Position numbers and translations under genes: made by a program. Source: Cohaesibacter intestini (GTDB taxonomy: Bacteria; Pseudomonadota; Alphaproteobacteria; Rhizobiales; Cohaesibacteraceae). Taken from it: a stretch of 64,000 nucleotides of DNA. The stretch is from contig NZ_QODK01000004.1 of the NCBI RefSeq assembly GCF_003324485.1, forward strand, positions 124,001 through 188,000. The letters run 5' to 3'. This document shows, piece after piece, positions 49,665 through 60,005 of this stretch (the stretch's first letter is position 1; every line of letters starts with the position of its first letter). The notes under the pieces are model-generated. The model ran no database searches. It was not told where the DNA came from and saw only the letters and a list, made by a program, of their open reading frames with translations.

Positions 49665-50549
49665 ATGCAGCCAGATCTTGAGTTGGTGCATATTCGAAAA
49701 GGTGAGTCTTTTGCCGCCTGGCAGCACGGATATCCATTCCGCACTGTCCGCTGGCATTATCACCCGGAATATGAAATTCATCTCGTTGTTTCGACGTCCG
49801 GCAAATATTATGTCGGCGATCATATCGGCCAGTTCAAGCCGGGCCAGCTCGTCATGACCGGTCCCTATCTGCCGCAAAACTGGATCAGCGAGATTCCCGA
49901 AGGCAGCTTTCACCATCGCCGCAGTCAGGTCATCCAGTTCTCCGAACCCTTCATCGAAGATGCCATGGATGCCATTCCTGAAATGGCCTCTTTCCGTCCG
50001 ATGCTTGAGCGGAGCCAACGTGGCCTTCTGTTCGACAACGAGACCGGCAATTCGATCGAACCTGTGCTCAGTCAACTGGTGGATGCAACGGGGATCAAGC
50101 GGATTGCCCTGTTTTGCGAGATCGTCGACACACTGCTTCGGGCGCCGGAGCCGCAAGTTCTTGCCAGCCTCAACTTCCAGCTGGAAATGGGCGGCGCTGA
50201 TGATACGGGCATCAATCGGGCGATCCATTTCCTGCGGGAAAATCTGACCAAGCCGATCACCGAAGCGGATCTTGCGGACCTGACCGGGCAGAGCCAAAGC
50301 TCCTTCTCGCGGTCCTTCAAGCGCCATACGGGCATGACGCTGGTTCGCTACAAGAACCAGCTCAGGATCGATCTGGCCTGTCACATGCTGCTGTCGGACG
50401 TCGACGCTCGCATCGCTGACATTTGTTACGATGTCGGCTTTGCCAACCTGTCCAACTTCAACCGACACTTCCAAAAGCTCAAGGGGATGTCCCCGTCGGA
50501 ATTCCGAACCTCTTTTGCGGCGAATAATGTGGTCCGTATGACAGGGTAG
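49665..50549 (+). CDS. AraC-family transcriptional regulator of the pentitol locus
   Basis: The 294-residue protein has an N-terminal cupin-like sensor (VRWHYHPEYEIHLVV, FKPGQLVMTGPYLPQNW). The C-terminal double helix-turn-helix (about 190-285) shows ITEADLADLTGQSQSSFSRSFKRHTG and IADICYDVGFANLSNFNRHFQKLKGMSPSEFR, quoted here as two landmarks. ATG 49665 has GGGAGGA 4 nt upstream. It is 97 bp upstream of the importer operon in the same direction and probably activates it in response to a pentitol. Confidence 0.92.
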   Translation: MQPDLELVHIRKGESFAAWQHGYPFRTVRWHYHPEYEIHLVVSTSGKYYVGDHIGQFKPGQLVMTGPYLPQNWISEIPEGSFHHRRSQVIQFSEPFIEDAMDAIPEMASFRPMLERSQRGLLFDNETGNSIEPVLSQLVDATGIKRIALFCEIVDTLLRAPEPQVLASLNFQLEMGGADDTGINRAIHFLRENLTKPITEADLADLTGQSQSSFSRSFKRHTGMTLVRYKNQLRIDLACHMLLSDVDARIADICYDVGFANLSNFNRHFQKLKGMSPSEFRTSFAANNVVRMTG

Positions 50550-50645
50550 GTTTTTTAAAAACGCTTTTGATTTCAACCATGTCGCAGAATAACACTCTGC
50601 GCAAACGGGTAAGTATTGCCCACTTCACAAACGGGAGGAACCCAG

Positions 50646-51563
50646 ATGAAGAAACTGCTTAAAACCGTATCGGTGGCCGCGCTTGGCCTGATGGCTTCGA
50701 CCATGATGTCTGCTGCCGCTGACGGCAAATTGAAAATCGGCATGACATTTCAGGAAATGAACAACCCTTATTTCGTTTCCATGCATGAAGCGCTGAAAGA
50801 AGCTGCGGCTTCGCTGAATGCTGATCTGGTTGTCACCGATGCGGGTCATGATGTTGCCAAACAGCTTTCCGATGTGGAAGACATGTTGCAGCAGGATATT
50901 GATATCCTCCTTTTGAACCCGACCGACAGCGCCGGCATCGAAGCCGCTGTGACCATGGCCAAGGAAGCGGGTGCCATCGTCGTGGCAGTGGATGCCAACG
51001 CCAATGGTCCGGTTGACACCTTCGTTGGGTCCAAAAACCGCGATGCTGGCTACATGTCCTGCAAATATATGGCGGAGGCTCTGGGTGGCAAAGGGGAAGT
51101 GGCCATTCTGGATGGTATCCCGGTGGTGCCGATCCTGCAACGCGTCGAAGGCTGCAAAGCTGCTCTGGGTGAATTTGCCGATATCAAACTGGTCGATACA
51201 CAGAATGGCCGCCAGGACCGTTCGGTTGCCCTTGGTGTTGTCGAAAACATGATCCAGTCCCATCCGAAACTGGCAGGGATCTTTTCCGTTAATGACGGTG
51301 GTGCCATGGGTGCGCTGGCTGCCATTCAGGGATCGGGTCGCGACATCAAGCTGACCTCGGTTGACGGTGCGCCTGAAGCCATTGACGCCATCAACAATGG
51401 CACGCCATTCATCGAAACCACCGCTCAGTTCCCACGCGATCAGATCCGCGTCGGTTTGGGCATGGCTTTGGCCCAGCTCTGGGGTGCTCGCGTTGTGCCG
51501 TCTGAAGTGCCGATCGACGTTCGTGTGATCGACGCCAAGAATGCCAAAGGCTTCAGCTGGTAA
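50646..51563 (+). CDS. Sugar/polyol ABC transporter periplasmic binding protein (RbsB family)
   Basis: The 305-residue type I binding protein has a signal peptide ([19 protein letters not shown]). Pentose-binder landmarks are [16 protein letters not shown] (about 32-47), [20 protein letters not shown] and [15 protein letters not shown]. The start at 50646 has GGGAGGA upstream; the frame to 50616 precedes this site. With the ATPase and permease it forms a CUT2-type importer. Ribitol, or another pentitol or pentulose, is the likely cargo, judging from the downstream enzymes. Confidence 0.92.
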
Positions 51564-51639: not shown

Positions 51640-53142
51640 ATGCTGCAAATGAACGGGATCAAGAAACGCTTCGGCTCTATCGAAGTCTTGCATGGCGTTG
51701 ATCTTGAGGTGCGCGCGGGGGAAGTGCATGCGCTTCTGGGCGAGAATGGTGCTGGCAAATCGACTTTGATGAAAGTCCTGTGTGGTATTATCAAGGAGAG
51801 CGAAGGCACCATCAGGATCAATGATGAGCTTCACTCCTTTGCCAATTATGACGCGGCCATTGCGGCTGGCGTCGGCATCGTGTTTCAGGAATTCAGTCTC
51901 ATTCCTTATCTGACGGCCATCGAAAATATGTTTCTGGCCAGAGAGATGACCACTCGGCTCGGGCTTCTGGATCGCAAGGCCATGCGCAATCGGGCGCGCG
52001 AAATCCTCGCTCGGCTTGATGTGGACCTGCCGCTCAATGTGCCGGTGGCCAATCTGTCGGTTGCCGAACAGCAATTTGTCGAAATCGCTAAGGCCTTGTC
52101 GCTGGAAGCGCGGATCTTGGTGCTGGATGAACCAACCGCAACGCTGACGCCGTCTGAGGTGGAGCATCTGTTTAAGGTGATCCGCGAATTGCGCCGGGAT
52201 GGGGTGGCGATTGTCTTCATTTCCCATCACATGGAAGAAATTTTCGAGATTTGCGACCGCATCACCGTATTGCGCGACGGGCATTATATTGCCACCCATG
52301 ACGTTGCCGATGTGGATGTGGACCGTTTGGTGGAGCTGATGGTCGGTCGGCGGATCGAGCAGAGCTTCCCGCCGAAACCAGAGATCGACATGAGCGGCGA
52401 GCCGGTGCTGGATGTGAGTGAACTGCAATTGTCAAAAGCAAGCCCGGTGTCCTCCTTCCAATTGCATCAAGGCGAAATTCTCGGCTTTGCCGGTTTGGTC
52501 GGGTCCGGGCGCACCGAGACTGCCTTGGCGATGATCGGGGCGCATCCGTCCGTCACCTGCAATGTCAAGCATAATGGCAAGGAAGTGCGCTTTTCCGAGC
52601 CTGCTGATGCGCTGGCCCATGGCATCGGGCTGTTGCCCGAAAGCCGTAAGGAACAGGGGCTGGTGACCAGCTTCTCGATCCTGCGCAATGTCTCGATCAA
52701 CAATTACGGCAAATATCGCAAGAATGGGGTCTTTATCGACCTCAAAAAGGAAGTGCTGTGCACCAAAGAGGTGATGGCACAGGTGCGGGTCAAGGCCAAT
52801 GGCCCCAGCGATCCGCTCGATACCCTTTCGGGGGGCAACCAGCAAAAGGTGGTGGTGGCCCGCTGGCTGAACCACACCATGAATGTCCTCATTTTTGATG
52901 AACCCACCCGCGGCATTGATGTCGGGGCAAAGGCTGAAATCTATCAGCTGATGCGCGACCTGACCGAGCAAGGGTGTTCCATCATCATGATTTCCTCGGA
53001 GCTGCCGGAAATTCTCGGCATGTCCGACCGGGTCTGTGTCTTTCGTGACGGCGGCATTGTCGACACGGTCGAAGGCGCCAACATCAACTCGGAAAAAATC
53101 ATGACGCTCGCAACGACCGGGAGACAAGACAATGTCGCATAA
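51640..53142 (+). CDS. Sugar/polyol ABC transporter ATPase with two nucleotide-binding domains (RbsA family)
   Basis: The 500-residue protein has two ABC domains. The first has Walker [10 protein letters not shown] (about 36-44), signature [15 protein letters not shown] and Walker [15 protein letters not shown]. The second has a degenerate P-loop GLVGSGRTE (about 287-295), signature [15 protein letters not shown] and [13 protein letters not shown]. This asymmetric design is normal for CUT2 importers. The start is [12 protein letters not shown] at 51640; the 33 upstream residues of the open frame overlap the hairpin. The 3' end overlaps the permease start by 11 bases. Confidence 0.94.
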
Positions 53143-54121
53143 TGAAATTATCAGCGAGGCCGGGAAGGCACCAGGCATGAACCAGAGTTTCAATTTCCGT
53201 GACTATCTGCATTCGCCGCTGGTCCTGCCGTTGGCCGGTTTGATCGTGGTGTCCATCATGATGGGTATTGCGAGTGAGAATTTCTTCAGCATTTCCAACA
53301 TTTTCAATGTGCTCCGGCAGGTGTCGATCATTGGCATTCTGGCGGTTGGCATGACCTTTGTCATTCTCACCGGCGGGATTGACCTCTCGGTCGGTGCCGT
53401 GATGGCCCTGTCTGGGACGATTTGTGCCGGGTTGATTGTCCATGGCGACATGTCTGGGGGCATTGGGCTTTTGGGCGGCACAGCGGTCGGGATCGGCTTT
53501 GGCCTGATTAACGGGGCGATGGTGGCGTGGGGGCGCATGCCCGCGATCATTGTGACGCTCGCGACGATGGGCATCGCCCGAGGTCTGGGGCTGATCTATT
53601 CGGGTGGCTATCCGATCAGCGGGTTGCCAAGTTGGATTTCGTGGTTCGGCATTGGCAGGATTGGCGATATTCCGGTGCCGGTGATCCTGATGGTGGTGAT
53701 CTATTTCTGCGCCTGGGTGCTGTTGCAGCGTACGCCGTTCGGTCGCCATGTCTATTCGATTGGTGGGAATGAGACGGCTGCTCGTCTGTCGGGCGTCAAG
53801 ACCCAATGGATCAAGCTGGCCATCTATACCATTTCCGGCTTCACCTCGTCGCTGGCGGCGATCGTGCTGACTGGTCGGCTGATGAGTGGTCAGCCCAATG
53901 CCGGGGTCGGCTTTGAGCTTGATGCCATCGCGGCTGTGGTGCTGGGCGGCACGTCGATTGCCGGGGGGCGTGGTCTGATCCTTGGCACCCTGATCGGCGC
54001 AATCCTGTTGGGAATCCTCAATAATGGTCTCAATCTGATGGGCATCAATCCGTATCTGCAAGATGTCATCAAGGGCTGCATCATTCTGCTGGCCATCTAT
54101 ATCGGTCGCGAATGGCGCTGA
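53132..54121 (+). CDS. Sugar/polyol ABC transporter permease (RbsC family)
   Basis: The 329-residue protein has about eight to ten membrane helices. Family landmarks are [20 protein letters not shown] (about 72-91), [16 protein letters not shown] and [21 protein letters not shown]. It overlaps the ATPase stop by 11 bases, which shows translational coupling. It closes the transport part of the operon and is followed by a hairpin at 54138. Confidence 0.94.
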
Positions 54122-54165: not shown

Positions 54166-54346
54166 GATGACTGACTGAGCAACAGAAATTTCAAAACCCA
54201 CTTGCAACGACAAGTGACCTTTCGGTGAGGGCTCTCTCCGGGAGACGGGGGAAGTCGCGCTTTTTTCAGGCTGATTGGCCAGATGTCTGAGCTGTTCTTG
54301 CCCCACGAACTGCGCGGGTGGGACGCGGAAAGATGAGAGGTTCAAA

Positions 54347-55084
54347 ATGGATTTCAAGGGAAAATCGGTGGTGATCACCGGCGCCAGCAAGGGCATTGGC
54401 TATGCCACCGCCTGCTTGCTGGCGAAACGCGGGGCCAAGATTGTCGGCATCGCCCGCTCAGAGGATGGGTTGGCCAAACTGGCAGCGGAAACAGGCGCGC
54501 GCACCATCGCGGCGGATTTCAGCAAGGCAAGCGATGTGCGCCGGGCCATGCAGGAGGCAATGGGCGGTGAGGCCCCTTGCGATTATCTGGTCAATTGTGC
54601 CGGTACCAACATTCTTGAAAGCGTCCTCGACATGACAGACGAGGGCTGCGAGGCGGTGCTGAATCTTAATTTGCGGGCCGCGCTGATTGCAGCGCAGGAG
54701 TTCGCCAAGGCACGGGTGGCCGCAGGCGGTGGCGGGGTGATCGCCAATATCACCAGCATTGCCGGGCATCGGGGCTTTGAGGCCCATGTCTGCTACGCCG
54801 CCTCGAAAGCCGGGCTCGAAGGCGCGACGCGGGTGATGGCCAAGGAGCTTGGGCCCCATGGCATCCGCGTGGTGGCCGTCGCCCCGACCATCACCTTGAC
54901 CGATCTGGCGATCGAGGCCTGGAGCGATCCGGTCAACAGCCAGCCAATGATGGTGCGTCATCCAATCAACCGCTTTGCCGAGCCTGAAGATGTTGCACGC
55001 AGCATCGCGATGGTCTTGAGCGATGACGCCGCGATGGTGACAGGGTCTGTCCTGTCTGTCGATGGCGGGTTTCTGGCGGTCTGA
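54347..55084 (+). CDS. Short-chain dehydrogenase similar to L-xylulose reductase (DCXR)
   Basis: The 245-residue classical SDR has the cofactor motif TGASKGIGYATA (about 12-23), NCAGTN (about 84-89) and the active site S-Y-x-x-x-K in TSIAGHRGF and CYAASKAGLEGATRVMAKEL. The C-terminal region (EAWSDPVNSQPMMVRHPINRFAEPEDVA, near 198-225) resembles the DCXR pattern WSDP..A..M..RIPLG+FAE. This suggests interconversion of a pentulose and a pentitol such as L-xylulose and xylitol. Start 54347 has GAGAGG upstream. The precise polyol is not shown by sequence. Confidence 0.85.
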   Translation: MDFKGKSVVITGASKGIGYATACLLAKRGAKIVGIARSEDGLAKLAAETGARTIAADFSKASDVRRAMQEAMGGEAPCDYLVNCAGTNILESVLDMTDEGCEAVLNLNLRAALIAAQEFAKARVAAGGGGVIANITSIAGHRGFEAHVCYAASKAGLEGATRVMAKELGPHGIRVVAVAPTITLTDLAIEAWSDPVNSQPMMVRHPINRFAEPEDVARSIAMVLSDDAAMVTGSVLSVDGGFLAV

Positions 55085-55125: not shown

Positions 55126-55857
55126 ATGGCAGTGTCCATGGAAGGCAAAATCGCAGCAATCACCGGTGCCGCTTCTGGTATCGGTTTGGCATCAACCAAG
55201 GCCCTTCTCGATGCAGGGGCGACCGTGGTCATGGTCGACCGCGATGCAGAGGCCCTTGCACGGCTGACCGCCGAGCTGGGCGACAAGGCGATTGCTCAAG
55301 TGACCGATCTGCTTGATCGGGATAGCTGTGCGAACATGGTTCCGGAAATCCTTGAAAAAGTTGACCATGTCGACATCCTCTATTGCAATGCAGGGATTTA
55401 TATCGGCGGGGACCTGATCGACACCGATACGGATTCCATCGACCGGATGCTCAATCTCAACGTCAATGCGGTGATGAAGAATGTCCGCGATATGGCGCCA
55501 CACATGATTGAGCGTGGGGTTGGCGACATCATGGTCACCTGCTCGATTGCCGGTCACTTCCCCACGCATTGGGAGCCGGTTTATGCGGGATCGAAATGGG
55601 CGATCACCTGCTTTGTCCAGACCATGCGTCGGCAGATGATCCCGCATGGCATCCGCGTCTCGCAGGTGTCTCCGGGTCCGGTCATTTCCGCTCTGTTGGC
55701 CGACTGGCCCGAAGAAAATCTGCGCAAAGCCAAGGAATCCGGCAGCCTGATCGAGGCAACGGAAGTGGCCGATGCGGTGATGTATATCCTGACCCGCGAC
55801 CGCAATGTCACCATTCGCGACATGCTGGTTCTGCCAACCAACTTTGATCGTCTCTGA
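55126..55857 (+). CDS. Ribitol 2-dehydrogenase-like short-chain dehydrogenase
   Basis: The 243-residue SDR is close to Klebsiella ribitol dehydrogenase in several diagnostic stretches: ITGAASGIGLASTKALLDAG, CNAGIYIGGDL, IAGHFPTHWEPVYAGSKWA (Tyr-Lys of the active site) and SPGPVISALLADWPEENL. The C-terminal RDRNVTIRDMLVLPTNFD is also shared. It would oxidise ribitol to D-ribulose with NAD. The next gene is a ribulokinase, which completes a two-step route to D-ribulose 5-phosphate. Confidence 0.88.
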   Translation: MAVSMEGKIAAITGAASGIGLASTKALLDAGATVVMVDRDAEALARLTAELGDKAIAQVTDLLDRDSCANMVPEILEKVDHVDILYCNAGIYIGGDLIDTDTDSIDRMLNLNVNAVMKNVRDMAPHMIERGVGDIMVTCSIAGHFPTHWEPVYAGSKWAITCFVQTMRRQMIPHGIRVSQVSPGPVISALLADWPEENLRKAKESGSLIEATEVADAVMYILTRDRNVTIRDMLVLPTNFDRL

Positions 55858-56045: not shown

Positions 56046-57674
56046 ATGGCAACTTGTTTCATGGGTATTGACGTCGGTACGGGCAGCGCACGCGCCGGGA
56101 TTTTTGATCAAGCTGGCCGCATGCTCGGCACGGCCAAATGCGACATCACGGTTTTTCATGAGCCGGGCTCGCGGGTGGAGCAGTCTTCTAGCGAGATCTG
56201 GCAGGCTGTTGCCACTGCCAGTAAGGGCGCCTTGGTGCAAGCCGGAATTGATCCGGCCGATGTGGTTGGTGTCGGCTTTGATGCGACCTGCTCGCTGGTG
56301 GTCTTGGGCGAGGGGGGCACGCCTTTGCCGATTGGTGATGATGCCAACGGGGATCGTGACATCATCGTCTGGATGGATCATCGCTCGATTGAACAGGCTG
56401 AGCGGATCAACAAAATGGGCCACAGGGTTCTGGATTATGTCGGCGGCATCATCTCACCGGAAATGGAAACGCCCAAATTGCTTTGGCTGAAGGAACACAA
56501 GCCTGAAATTTTCGCCAAGGCATGGCGCTTCTTTGATTTGACGGATTTTCTCACTTGGCGGGCGACGGGCAGCGACGCGCGCTCCATTTGCACCGTGACC
56601 TGCAAATGGACCTATATGGGCCATGAAGCCAGCTGGGACGCGGATTATTTCACCAAGATCGGCCTTGGTGTGTTGGCCGAAGAAGGGTTCGAGCGGATCG
56701 GCACGCAGGTGGTTGATGCCGGGACGCCGCTTGGCACAGGCCTGACGGCGGAGGCTGCGGCGGACCTTGGTCTGGTGGCCGGAACCGCTGTCGGGGCTGG
56801 TCTGATTGACGCCCATGCGGGTGGCATTGGCACGGTGGGGGCTACGGGCGCGGGCAAACCGCAGGACAATCTGGGTTATGTCTTTGGCACCAGCTCCTGC
56901 ACCATGACCTCGACCGACGAGCCGGTCTTTGTGCCCGGTGTCTGGGGGCCTTATTTCTCGGCCATGGTGCCGGGGCTGTGGCTGAATGAAGGGGGGCAGT
57001 CGGCGGCGGGCGCTGCCATTGCCCAATTGCTGACCTATCATCCGGCTGCTTTTGAAGCGGGTGCATTGGCCAAGGCAGAGGGATGCGCGCTGCCCGATTG
57101 GTTGGCGGCCCGTGCTGTGGCCATGGCCGGGGCTGACAAGGCCAGGGCCGATAAGACGGTGGCTTCCTTGGCGGACGGGATGCATGTGGTGCCGGAATTT
57201 ATCGGCAACCGCGCCCCTTATGGCGACCCACACACCCGCGCGGTGATTGCGGGCCTTGGCATGGAAGCCGATATCGACAATCTGGTGGCGCTCTATGTGG
57301 CAGGTGTCTGCAGCCTTGGTTATGGCTTGCGACAGATCATCGAAGCGCAGGCGGAAGCGGGCGCCAAGATCCAGTCGATCGTCATCAGTGGCGGCGCGGG
57401 GCGCAGTGACCTTGTGCGGCAATTGCTGGCGGACGCGACCGGGGTTCGGGTGGCAGCCCCCGCAACGGAAGAGCCGGTCCTACTTGGCTCGGCCATTCTG
57501 GGCGCGGTGGCTGGCGGTGCCTTTGGCACGGTGGCCGATGCCATGGCCGCGATGTCGTCGATTGCGGCGGATTATCCACCCGCCGATGGGGCGGCACGGA
57601 CCTATCACGACACACGCTATGATCTGTTCAAGCGGTTTCAAAATCTGGCCCGTGAGGCCGCCGTGCGGTCGTGA
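56046..57674 (+). CDS. FGGY-family pentulose kinase, probable D-ribulokinase
   Basis: The 542-residue kinase has the N-terminal phosphate motif GIDVGTGSARAGIFD (about 7-21) and VGVGFDATCSLVVL. WMDHRSIEQAERIN is a landmark of the ribulokinase subgroup. The C-terminal FGGY domain has GTSSCTMT, GGQSAAGAAIAQLL, EFIGNRAPYGDP and VISGGAGRSDLVRQLLAD. Phosphorylation of D-ribulose to D-ribulose 5-phosphate would follow the ribitol dehydrogenase. The length and motif order match the eukaryote-like FGGY ribulose kinase type rather than E. coli AraB. Confidence 0.92.
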   Translation: MATCFMGIDVGTGSARAGIFDQAGRMLGTAKCDITVFHEPGSRVEQSSSEIWQAVATASKGALVQAGIDPADVVGVGFDATCSLVVLGEGGTPLPIGDDANGDRDIIVWMDHRSIEQAERINKMGHRVLDYVGGIISPEMETPKLLWLKEHKPEIFAKAWRFFDLTDFLTWRATGSDARSICTVTCKWTYMGHEASWDADYFTKIGLGVLAEEGFERIGTQVVDAGTPLGTGLTAEAAADLGLVAGTAVGAGLIDAHAGGIGTVGATGAGKPQDNLGYVFGTSSCTMTSTDEPVFVPGVWGPYFSAMVPGLWLNEGGQSAAGAAIAQLLTYHPAAFEAGALAKAEGCALPDWLAARAVAMAGADKARADKTVASLADGMHVVPEFIGNRAPYGDPHTRAVIAGLGMEADIDNLVALYVAGVCSLGYGLRQIIEAQAEAGAKIQSIVISGGAGRSDLVRQLLADATGVRVAAPATEEPVLLGSAILGAVAGGAFGTVADAMAAMSSIAADYPPADGAARTYHDTRYDLFKRFQNLAREAAVRS

Positions 57675-57704
57675 CTGGCTGGTGGAGGAACAGGAGCAAA
57701 GGTC

Positions 57705-58568
57705 ATGGGCAACTGGTCACAAGCCACCCAGTTTGATCAATCGACGGCAATAGAAGAGATTGTCTTCTTCGCCAATCGTCTGCTTGAGGGCTCACGACCG
57801 GTACGGTTGCTGGTGGGGGAGGATGGCTTTGGCCGCTCGATGTTGCTCGACCTTGCTCGCCATACGGTTTGCGCCAAACAGGCCGCGGTTCTGACTGTGT
57901 CAGTTGTGCCGCAAGACGGCTATGGCTGGGGTCTCGACCCTGATTTTGCCACCGGTTTGGCGCAAGGCGGGCAACAAGGGCTCAAAGCCATGGCAGCGTT
58001 GTTGGATCGCTTCTTTGCTGGGGTGAGGGCGCAAGCCAATCGCCACAGGGGTGATGAGCATGCCATAATCCGAAAACGGCTGGAGGTCTTGCGGCCGTTG
58101 ACTGGTGGACGCCATTTGTCTCACCGCCTTCTCTCCTACTGGCAGGCATATGGGGAAGGCGATCAAAGGCAAATGGCGCTCGCCTTGTCACAGCTTGGTC
58201 AGCCGGTGGCGGGGATCAGTCCAATTGATCAGCTGAGTTTGATGTCTGTCCTTTGTCAATTAAGCGGTGTCGCCGGAGTGCTGATCATTCTGCGTGGAGA
58301 GGATGATGCGTCGCTGATGCAGGCCTTTGATGCGGTTTCCAATTTTGCGCAGCCGGGCTGTCCGTCGGAACTTTTCCTGCAAAGGATGGGCTTTCTGGTG
58401 GTGGCCAATCCCGCCGCTTTGCATCGAAGGGAAAGTCAGGCCTTGATGGACATTAGCCCTCATGCCATGCGGTCGGCGATAGAGCAAGGAGGCCGTCTGG
58501 TCACCCAGATCCATCGCCTGTCCATCAATGTGCCAAGGCTCTGTGTTGAGGACTATTTGCGGGCCTGA
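57705..58568 (+). CDS. Uncharacterised P-loop-like protein, possibly a degenerate DUF2791 (BrxC/BrxD-type) domain
   Basis: The 287-residue protein has a good ribosome site and starts 30 bp after the kinase stop, so it belongs to the pentitol operon. I do not recognise a functional family with certainty. Residues 34-45 read RLLVGEDGFGRS, placed like a Walker A loop (GxxGxGKS) but with Arg instead of the essential Lys. VLIILRGEDD (about 192-201) sits where a Walker B would be. The order of LRPLTGG (129-135), a helical 'YWQAYGEGDQ' segment and SVLCQLSGVAGVLIIL resembles DUF2791 ATPase domains. The protein is shorter and lacks intact catalytic residues. It may be a non-hydrolysing regulatory or scaffold protein, or a decaying gene. 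Confidence 0.6.
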   Translation: MGNWSQATQFDQSTAIEEIVFFANRLLEGSRPVRLLVGEDGFGRSMLLDLARHTVCAKQAAVLTVSVVPQDGYGWGLDPDFATGLAQGGQQGLKAMAALLDRFFAGVRAQANRHRGDEHAIIRKRLEVLRPLTGGRHLSHRLLSYWQAYGEGDQRQMALALSQLGQPVAGISPIDQLSLMSVLCQLSGVAGVLIILRGEDDASLMQAFDAVSNFAQPGCPSELFLQRMGFLVVANPAALHRRESQALMDISPHAMRSAIEQGGRLVTQIHRLSINVPRLCVEDYLRA

Positions 58569-58694
58569 CGGGCTTTATAAAAAGCGTGAGATCATCAGGC
58601 GAATTATGGCCTGCTGATCAGTGGTATGGTCGATGTCGGGAAGAGGTCTGGATGGTGAGCAGGCCGCTTGTGCCGGAGCGGCCCGTCAGCAATC

Positions 58695-60005
58695 CTAGCG
58701 CTTGGGTGCGCGGCGTGTGACAGTGTCCGGGCGGCCGGGCAGGGCAAGTTTGGGCAAATCGCGGGGCTTTTGGGAAATGACCTTGCCCTTGGCGATGACC
58801 GTCAGCCGGGTGGCGCGCAGGCGGATGGCGTCGATCGGGTCATTGGCGTCGAGAAGGACGAGGCTCGCCTTCTTGCCCACCGCGAGGCCATAATCCTCAA
58901 GGCCCATAATCGCGGCGCTGTCGATGGTCACCATGTCGAAGCATTTGCGCATGTCTGCCGGGCTGGTCATTTGCGCCACATGCAGGCCCATGAAGGCGAC
59001 GTCGAGCATGTCGGCGGTGCCGAGCGAATACCAAGGGTCAAGCACGCAATCCTGACCAAAGCCGACGCGGATGCCGTGCGCCAGCATTTCCGGCACGCGG
59101 GTCTGGCCGCGGCGCTTGGGATAGGTGTCGTGGCGACCTTGCAGGACAATGTTGATCAGCGGATTGGGGATGGCGGAGACTTCGGCCTCGGCGATCAGCG
59201 GCAGCAATTTCGAGACATAATAATTGTCCATCGAATGCATTGAGGTCAGGTGCGAGCCAGCGACCCGACCTTGCAGGCCCAAACGCTGGGTTTCATAGGC
59301 CAGCTGCTCAATATGGCGTGACAGCGGATCGTCACTTTCATCGCAATGCATGTCGACCATCAGGCCGCGCTTGGCAGCCACTTCACAGAGCTCGGTTACC
59401 GAACGGCGGCCATCTTCCATGGTGCGCTCAAAATGCGGGATGCCACCGACAATGTCGACGCCCAGATCGAGCGCCCGCAAGGTGCAGTCCTTGGCGGTGG
59501 GGGAGCGGAAATAGCCATCCTGTGGGAAGGCGACCAGCTGCAGATCGATATAGTCTTTGACCTTGTCGCGGACGGACAAAAGGGCGCGGACGCCTTTCAG
59601 CCCGTCTTCGTCGGACGTGTCGACATGGGTGCGGATGGCCAGCAGGCCCATGGATGCCGCCCAGTCGCAATAGGCGAGCGCCCTCGTTTCGATGTCTTCT
59701 TCGGTCTGGATCGGCTTGAGCTCGCCCCACAGATTGATGCCTTCAAGCAGGGTGCCGGAGGCATTGATGCGCGGGGTGCCATAGGACAGGGTGGCGTCCA
59801 TATGGAAATGCGGGTCGACAAGGGGCGGGGCAACAAGAATGCCCGACGCGTCGATGATCTCGCCCGCTTCGGCCGTGATGTTGGGCTCGATGGCGGCGAT
59901 TTTGCCGTCTTTGATGGCGATGTCGGCAATGGAGCCGTCTTTTATAGAGCCGTCCTCTCGGACTTTGCTGGGCAGTGTGCCGCCCTTGACGATGAGATCA
60001 AACAT
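58695..60005 (-). CDS. codA: Cytosine deaminase-like amidohydrolase
   Basis: The 436-residue TIM-barrel metalloenzyme has the metal-binding HxH in PLVDPHFHMDAT (about 62-73), the third His in MVDMHCDESDDPLSRH and the catalytic Asp in GFGQDCVLDPWYSLGTADM. The last of these aligns with GHDDVFDPWYPLG of E. coli CodA. GLHVAQMT is also shared. It would deaminate cytosine, or a related pyrimidine or creatinine-like ring, to uracil and ammonia. Its ATG overlaps the permease stop (TAATG), so it is coupled to a nucleobase/nucleoside-type importer. That partner supports the call. Confidence 0.88.
   Translation of the reverse strand: MFDLIVKGGTLPSKVREDGSIKDGSIADIAIKDGKIAAIEPNITAEAGEIIDASGILVAPPLVDPHFHMDATLSYGTPRINASGTLLEGINLWGELKPIQTEEDIETRALAYCDWAASMGLLAIRTHVDTSDEDGLKGVRALLSVRDKVKDYIDLQLVAFPQDGYFRSPTAKDCTLRALDLGVDIVGGIPHFERTMEDGRRSVTELCEVAAKRGLMVDMHCDESDDPLSRHIEQLAYETQRLGLQGRVAGSHLTSMHSMDNYYVSKLLPLIAEAEVSAIPNPLINIVLQGRHDTYPKRRGQTRVPEMLAHGIRVGFGQDCVLDPWYSLGTADMLDVAFMGLHVAQMTSPADMRKCFDMVTIDSAAIMGLEDYGLAVGKKASLVLLDANDPIDAIRLRATRLTVIAKGKVISQKPRDLPKLALPGRPDTVTRRAPKR

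Follow-up and report, generated by a model that had tools for sequence, protein, structure and literature searches.

The gene and its operon

What does a degenerate relative of anti-phage ATPases do at the end of an operon for sugar alcohols? This question is raised by the open reading frame at 57705-58568 (+) of the window, i.e., the whole stretch of 64,000 nucleotides analysed here. The frame starts with ATG and runs over 287 codons (287 aa) without an internal stop: it is a real gene. The earlier note had it following a kinase gene by 30 bp, with a good ribosome site. Both points are borne out by the sequence: the gap of 30 bp lies between the kinase stop at 57674 and the ATG, and a purine-rich, ribosome-site-like stretch, GGAGGAACAGGAG, can be read at 57684-57696, 8 bp upstream of the ATG. 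Orthologues are present in two other genomes of the genus, G006 and G016. The features referred to below are the following.

49665-50546, +, AraC-type regulator (its G006 counterpart, with 80% identity, matches HTH_18 and HTH_AraC)
50616-51563, +, probable ABC substrate-binding protein (87% identity to its G006 counterpart; name based on appearance and position)
51643-53142, +, ABC transporter ATPase (family match)
53132-54121, +, ABC permease (BPD_transp_2; family match)
54344-55084, +, short-chain dehydrogenase 1 (NF005465, score over the cut-off)
55126-55857, +, short-chain dehydrogenase 2 (family match)
56046-57674, +, FGGY pentulose kinase (TIGR01315; family match)
57684-57696, +, ribosome-binding-site-like stretch (read from the sequence)
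57705-58568, +, degenerate SngB/BrxD-like protein of family PF10923 (287 aa), encoded last in the operon (Pfam, PADLOC and profile-profile comparison)
57705-57884, +, residues 1-60, the best-conserved block between the G006 and G016 orthologues (75% identity, pN 0.13)
57816-57839, +, remodelled Walker A loop GEDGFGRS at residues 38-45 (R in place of K, F42 in place of a small residue)
58275-58307, +, Walker B strand remnant, residues 191-201, with no aligned Asp-Glu pair

These genes likely form one operon, in the order AraC-type regulator, ABC binding protein, ATPase, permease, two dehydrogenases, kinase and, last, the 287-aa gene. The intergenic gaps range from -11 to 222 bp, and the 287-aa gene is presumably co-transcribed with the others. 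The kinase scores 677.8 bits against the NCBIfam model TIGR01315 (cut-off 408.7), and because of this kinase family, the operon is of the pentitol/pentulose type. That much of its earlier description as a ribitol catabolic operon stands; ribitol itself as the substrate is a reasonable guess.

In G006, the ATG of the orthologue overlaps the stop codon of a preceding gene for a HAD-type phosphatase. Such a gene lies between the kinase and the short gene in both G006 (L017:8642-9367) and G016 (L018:7983-8678). The phosphatase is absent at 57675-57704 of the window, and tblastn (E up to 10) found no trace of it at 57000-59500. Downstream, an imperfect 13-nt inverted repeat at 58608-58665 (85% complementary, 32 nt apart) sits between the 287-aa gene and a convergent cytosine-deaminase-like gene; it is no clear terminator. 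A scan for promoters and terminators returned seven promoter-like sites, with 3.4 expected, and eight terminator-like sites, with 8.1 expected, which gives nothing to build on.

Family identity

The protein had been likened, by its overall order, to the DUF2791 ATPase domains of BrxC and BrxD, and three scores agree with this. A Pfam search (E up to 1) returned a single family, PF10923 BrxC_BrxD, which we take to be the former DUF2791: the match of the window protein reaches 23.6 bits against a gathering cut-off of 22.2, with an E-value of 2.8e-5 over residues 25-162. In PADLOC, the protein matches SngB of the Shango defence system (PDLC03959; E 4.1e-7). Both matches are weak for the window copy; the G006 and G016 orthologues score 52.3 and 49.2 bits for PF10923, and their E-values for SngB are 2.6e-15 and 3.2e-12. 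Finally, hhalign of a profile of the three orthologues against one made from the cores of 20 full-length relatives gave a probability of 99.6 (E 1.3e-23; 292 columns), and the family relation is therefore well beyond chance.

An NCBIfam scan of the 287-aa protein gave no match, and a search of the PDB sequences with it gave nothing meaningful (best E 0.34). Among plasmids, tblastn retrieved 639 records, all below 60% identity and with less than 80% of the query covered; of the 30 matches listed, most are annotated as 'ATP-binding protein'. Scans of genome contigs for close relatives, run with two queries, yielded no confirmed match. Defence-finder profiles can label such operon proteins SngB.

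Loss of the ATPase motifs

The long relatives used for comparison are 25 full-length proteins from the searches of the order and the class; the phylum search added six long matches, which stand outside the alignment. The loop G-x-Y-G-[AS]-G-K-[TS] and the D-E pair are intact in 25/25 of them, the pair of two relatives having missed the strict pattern and being seen in the alignment. Not one of the three operon forms keeps the Walker lysine or an aligned Asp-Glu. In the window protein, the two features reported by the earlier note are both visible: the Walker-A-like loop GEDGFGRS, residues 38-45, with Arg in the place of the Walker lysine, and a putative Walker B strand, GVLIILRGED (residues 191-200), with no clean Asp-Glu after it. 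The arginine, however, is not conserved among the orthologues, whose loops read GEDGFGRS, GEAAFGMS and GEPGFGIS: the place of the lysine is taken by R, M or I. At the position of the D-E pair, two operon forms have G-E, and nothing is aligned in the window copy.

Common to all three operon forms is a new residue before the last glycine of the loop, Phe42, where each of the 25 long relatives has Ser or Ala. It belongs to a set of 14 columns in which the operon forms share a residue found in none of 21 long rows; the set includes F21, F22 and F42, and one of its columns is merely the start Met. One guess is that the Phe residues fill the empty pocket. The window copy keeps 26 of the 84 columns invariant in the 21 long rows (16 more are gaps), and the other two copies keep 19 and 17. 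All three proteins start past the N-terminal tail of the family and stop short of its C-terminal helical part.

Given the replaced Walker lysine, the new Phe in the loop and the missing Asp-Glu, binding of ATP by the operon proteins appears doubtful from their sequences. The same changes speak against the idea that the protein binds a nucleotide without hydrolysing it and works as a ligand-gated switch. Such binding without hydrolysis, put forward in the earlier note, is improbable and finds no support in the window protein, even if glycines 38 and 43 and Ser 45 of the loop are kept in 3/3 forms and the strand-loop-helix layout is kept in the predicted models.

Predicted structure

The AlphaFold2 model of the window protein has a pLDDT of 74.1 and a pTM of 0.71, with a pLDDT under 50 at residues 235-287. 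As this model is weak after residue 235, that of the G006 orthologue was preferred (pLDDT 79.5, pTM 0.80), in which five strands of at least three residues are predicted, with a short helix after the last. The predicted order is a helix, strand 1, a loop and helix, strand 2, a long helical insert, three strands and the short last helix. The top Foldseek match is RdrA, the defence AAA+ ring of RADAR (probability 1.00, E 7.9e-3), with a TM-score of at most 0.41; BrxC-containing entries rank 12th and 35th, and ORC 15th. All E-values are above 1e-3, and because unrelated folds are mixed in (UvrD, among the best ranks, and macro domains), the matches support the AAA+ class of the modelled protein rather than prove it.

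Selection and divergence

The protein changes much faster than its neighbours. The G006 and G016 copies are 44% identical to each other, against 74-95% for the other proteins of the operon, and the window copy is 31-32% identical to these two, against 75-87% for the neighbours. Judged by its sequence, such a protein (31-44% identity across the three species, with kinases that are 76-90% identical) is unusual for a metabolic scaffold. The divergence is unevenly spread: identity between G006 and G016 is 75% over the first 60 residues (pN 0.13) and 36-37% over the rest. In the window copy, the first 60 residues are 38-40% identical to those of G006 and G016.

The dS of the operon neighbours (0.75-2.0) is near saturation, which makes dN/dS rough, and simulations were used for that reason. 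For G006 and G016, the observed pN/pS is 0.514, compared to a plain neutral mean of 0.905, and 0/200 simulations were as low; 30 realigned neutral runs had a mean of 0.919 and a minimum of 0.715. For the pairs including the window copy, the values of 0.694 and 0.729 were reached by 0/200 and 1/200 plain neutral runs, but they are marginal against the 30 realigned runs, with minima of 0.694 and 0.725. After simulated drift of 0.4 substitutions per site, 0, 2 and 3 of 500 copies were without a stop.

Could the gene simply be under relaxed selection, on its way out? The low identity next to that of the neighbours, the loss of the Walker motifs and the pN/pS of the window copy at the edge of the realigned simulations would fit. 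On the other side stand frames that are open in all three species over distances where simulated drift brings stops, the G006-G016 pN/pS with no neutral run as low, and the window copy itself, which keeps the most family-invariant residues (26/84, vs. 19 and 17). Relaxed selection is hence quite improbable, and decay, which the earlier note had allowed for, is unlikely as a general explanation, with weaker evidence in the case of the window copy. Since the frames have stayed open over such distances and the first 60 residues are conserved between G006 and G016, the gene reads as no simple wreck. Constraint on the window copy, which follows mostly from its open frame and kept family residues, is less certain than on the G006 and G016 copies.

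A tree of 28 proteins fully supports the separation of the three operon forms from the 25 long proteins. Because its branches, at 1 to 10 changes per column, are saturated, no source lineage is stated for the operon forms.

Distribution in the genus and beyond

Eighteen genomes of the genus, including that of the window (G000), were searched, and seven of them contain PF10923 matches. The short operon form occurs in G000, G006 and G016. A full-length protein of 446 aa is found in G003, G011, G012, G015 and G016, between a long protein and a helicase, as in Shango; the SngA, SngB and SngC families were tested on the G012 set only, where TerB and DEAD/helicase domains were found too. The SngA of G012 (L019:6188-9571, -) has 1127 aa, with a signal-like N-terminus, PG_binding_1 at residues 49-100 and then TerB domains; the PADLOC SngA profile covers its residues 406-1125 only. 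A kinase more than 75% identical to that of the window exists in three of the 18 genomes (the window's included), and in 3/3 of these genomes with an orthologous operon, the short gene is present and stands at its end.

More widely, a kinase search of 297 genomes of the order gave 42 matches, two of which are the operon itself; 20 of the other 40 were fetched with their flanks. None of these 20 loci, with kinases 58-67% identical to the window's, holds a family member (ORFs of at least 110 aa, E up to 10), and in a draw of 347 genomes of the class, no further kinase fell below an E-value of 1e-200. Apart from the operon form, profile searches in overlapping sets of genomes (order, 397; class, 385; phylum, 388) found only long frames of 435-698 codons; they scored the first few candidates per genome (4-6), so misses are possible. 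In these kinase loci and profile searches, the operon form, with only three copies found, was seen in this genus alone.

Defence partners in the genomes

Neither G000 nor G006 has a second PF10923 protein, and all that matches SngA in them is a peptidoglycan-binding stretch. A close SngC is missing too: at E up to 1e-20, the only match is a helicase with 34-35% identity elsewhere in the genome. For lack of these partners, the protein does not need Shango in the two genomes, and the short gene is unlikely to be a Shango or BREX subunit there. G016 carries Shango elsewhere in its genome, and an interplay of its operon protein with that system is possible. PglZ (PF08665) is absent from G000, G006 and G016; one of the 18 genus genomes matches. 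The PglZ-domain match of G011 lies in an 842-codon frame (L116, G011:C1:3640456-3640986), possibly in a BREX-type locus.

These searches bear on a further explanation, in which the protein senses phage infection as an inactive STAND-like protein, the role proposed for BrxB of BREX, and is merely housed in and expressed with a metabolic operon. Its homology with a defence ATPase and the defence protein RdrA as first fold match are in line with this, as are its rapid evolution and its loss of the Walker motifs and helical bundle, all traits given for iSTAND proteins in PMC12839542. However, the three genomes gave no PglZ match, searches of G000 and G006 revealed neither SngA nor a close SngC, and the gene is surrounded by pentitol and transport genes. 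Between G006 and G016, moreover, the N-terminal block shows an enzyme-like rate of change. A sensor is therefore rather unlikely, though the strongest of the rival readings.

A proposed domesticated pseudo-ATPase

The same place in three related bacteria suggests a defence protein reused for another job. The favoured reading, with a probability of about 0.5, is a domesticated pseudo-AAA+ protein acting by protein contact in the pentitol pathway; two genomes yielded no defence partner, and gene and operon stay together, which is why this pathway is preferred. Homology, losses, co-location in 3/3 genomes, the open frame and the strong constraint on the first 60 residues between G006 and G016 are established. 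The protein would bind no ATP, act by contact and serve pentitol metabolism; it is only its position that links the gene to pentitols. The earlier picture of a nucleotide-binding member of the fold in a polyol operon is thereby kept in one half: the protein is a degenerate relative of the BrxC/BrxD/SngB ATPases and a fixed part of the operon (3/3), and continued nucleotide binding is the unsupported half.

The ancestor would have been an AAA+ ATPase of the SngB/BrxD type from anti-phage systems, captured, probably once, at the end of the pentitol operon in the ancestor of the three species. It would have become a pseudo-ATPase by losing the tail at the N-terminus, the lysine of Walker A, the aspartate of Walker B and the helical part at the C-terminus, together with most of the conserved segment of the family after the fourth core strand. 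Its remodelled N-terminal block (helix, first strand, lysine-less loop and next helix) may dock on a partner from the same operon, most likely to act as a scaffold or modulator of the pentitol enzymes or of the operon's regulator.

Where exchange between defence and housekeeping is discussed, the proposed direction is mostly towards defence. An orthologous, inactive and selected member of a defence ATPase family inside a catabolic operon, with no Shango or BREX partner found in two of three genomes, would, if true, be an exaptation of the SngB/BrxD fold from defence to metabolism. On this tentative reading, a sugar-alcohol operon took in an anti-phage ATPase that was then stripped of its ATPase, and the protein would now regulate or scaffold carbon catabolism, its dead P-loop region being reused as binding surface. 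Growth on pentitols is a scorable trait, so that the role is directly testable. No PF10923 protein in a sugar operon was found among the open-access literature matches listed, which is no proof of absence.

Comparison with known systems

SngB of Shango is homologous to the operon protein over the AAA+ core. Full-length SngB relatives measure about 430-500 aa and have both Walker motifs (25/25), whereas the operon protein has 287 aa and 0/3 forms keep the motifs; the N-terminal tail and C-terminal helical part of SngB are both missing from the operon forms. In the genus, SngB is flanked by SngA and SngC (by family tests in G012, with the same layout in four more genomes), and not, like the operon protein, among pentitol and transport genes. 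BrxD and BrxC of BREX belong to the same Pfam family as the operon protein, and BrxD is a weak second PADLOC match of the G016 orthologue (E 3.1e-4). Both are ATPases of BREX loci, in contrast to the operon protein, whose three genomes have no PglZ match.

A likeness in manner of loss is offered by the iSTAND proteins of BREX (BrxB) and MoxR-vWA systems, which have lost the Walker motifs and the C-terminal helical bundle and change rapidly (PMC12839542). The operon forms are likewise without Walker motifs and helical bundle and fast changing. As to a STAND/ORC-like core, the G006 model has five strands, and the Foldseek matches to RdrA, ORC and BrxC have E above 1e-3 and low TM-scores. iSTAND proteins, however, sit in defence systems with an effector, and the operon protein lies outside any defence locus; BrxB also differs in having a cap-like sheet. 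None of the PADLOC matches of the operon protein and its orthologues is named BrxB, for which the library may hold no model. According to PMC13326643, BrxB contacts the AAA+ domain of BrxC and forms a bridge from BrxC to PglZ, and it is by analogy with this BrxB that the operon protein is proposed to act through protein contact.
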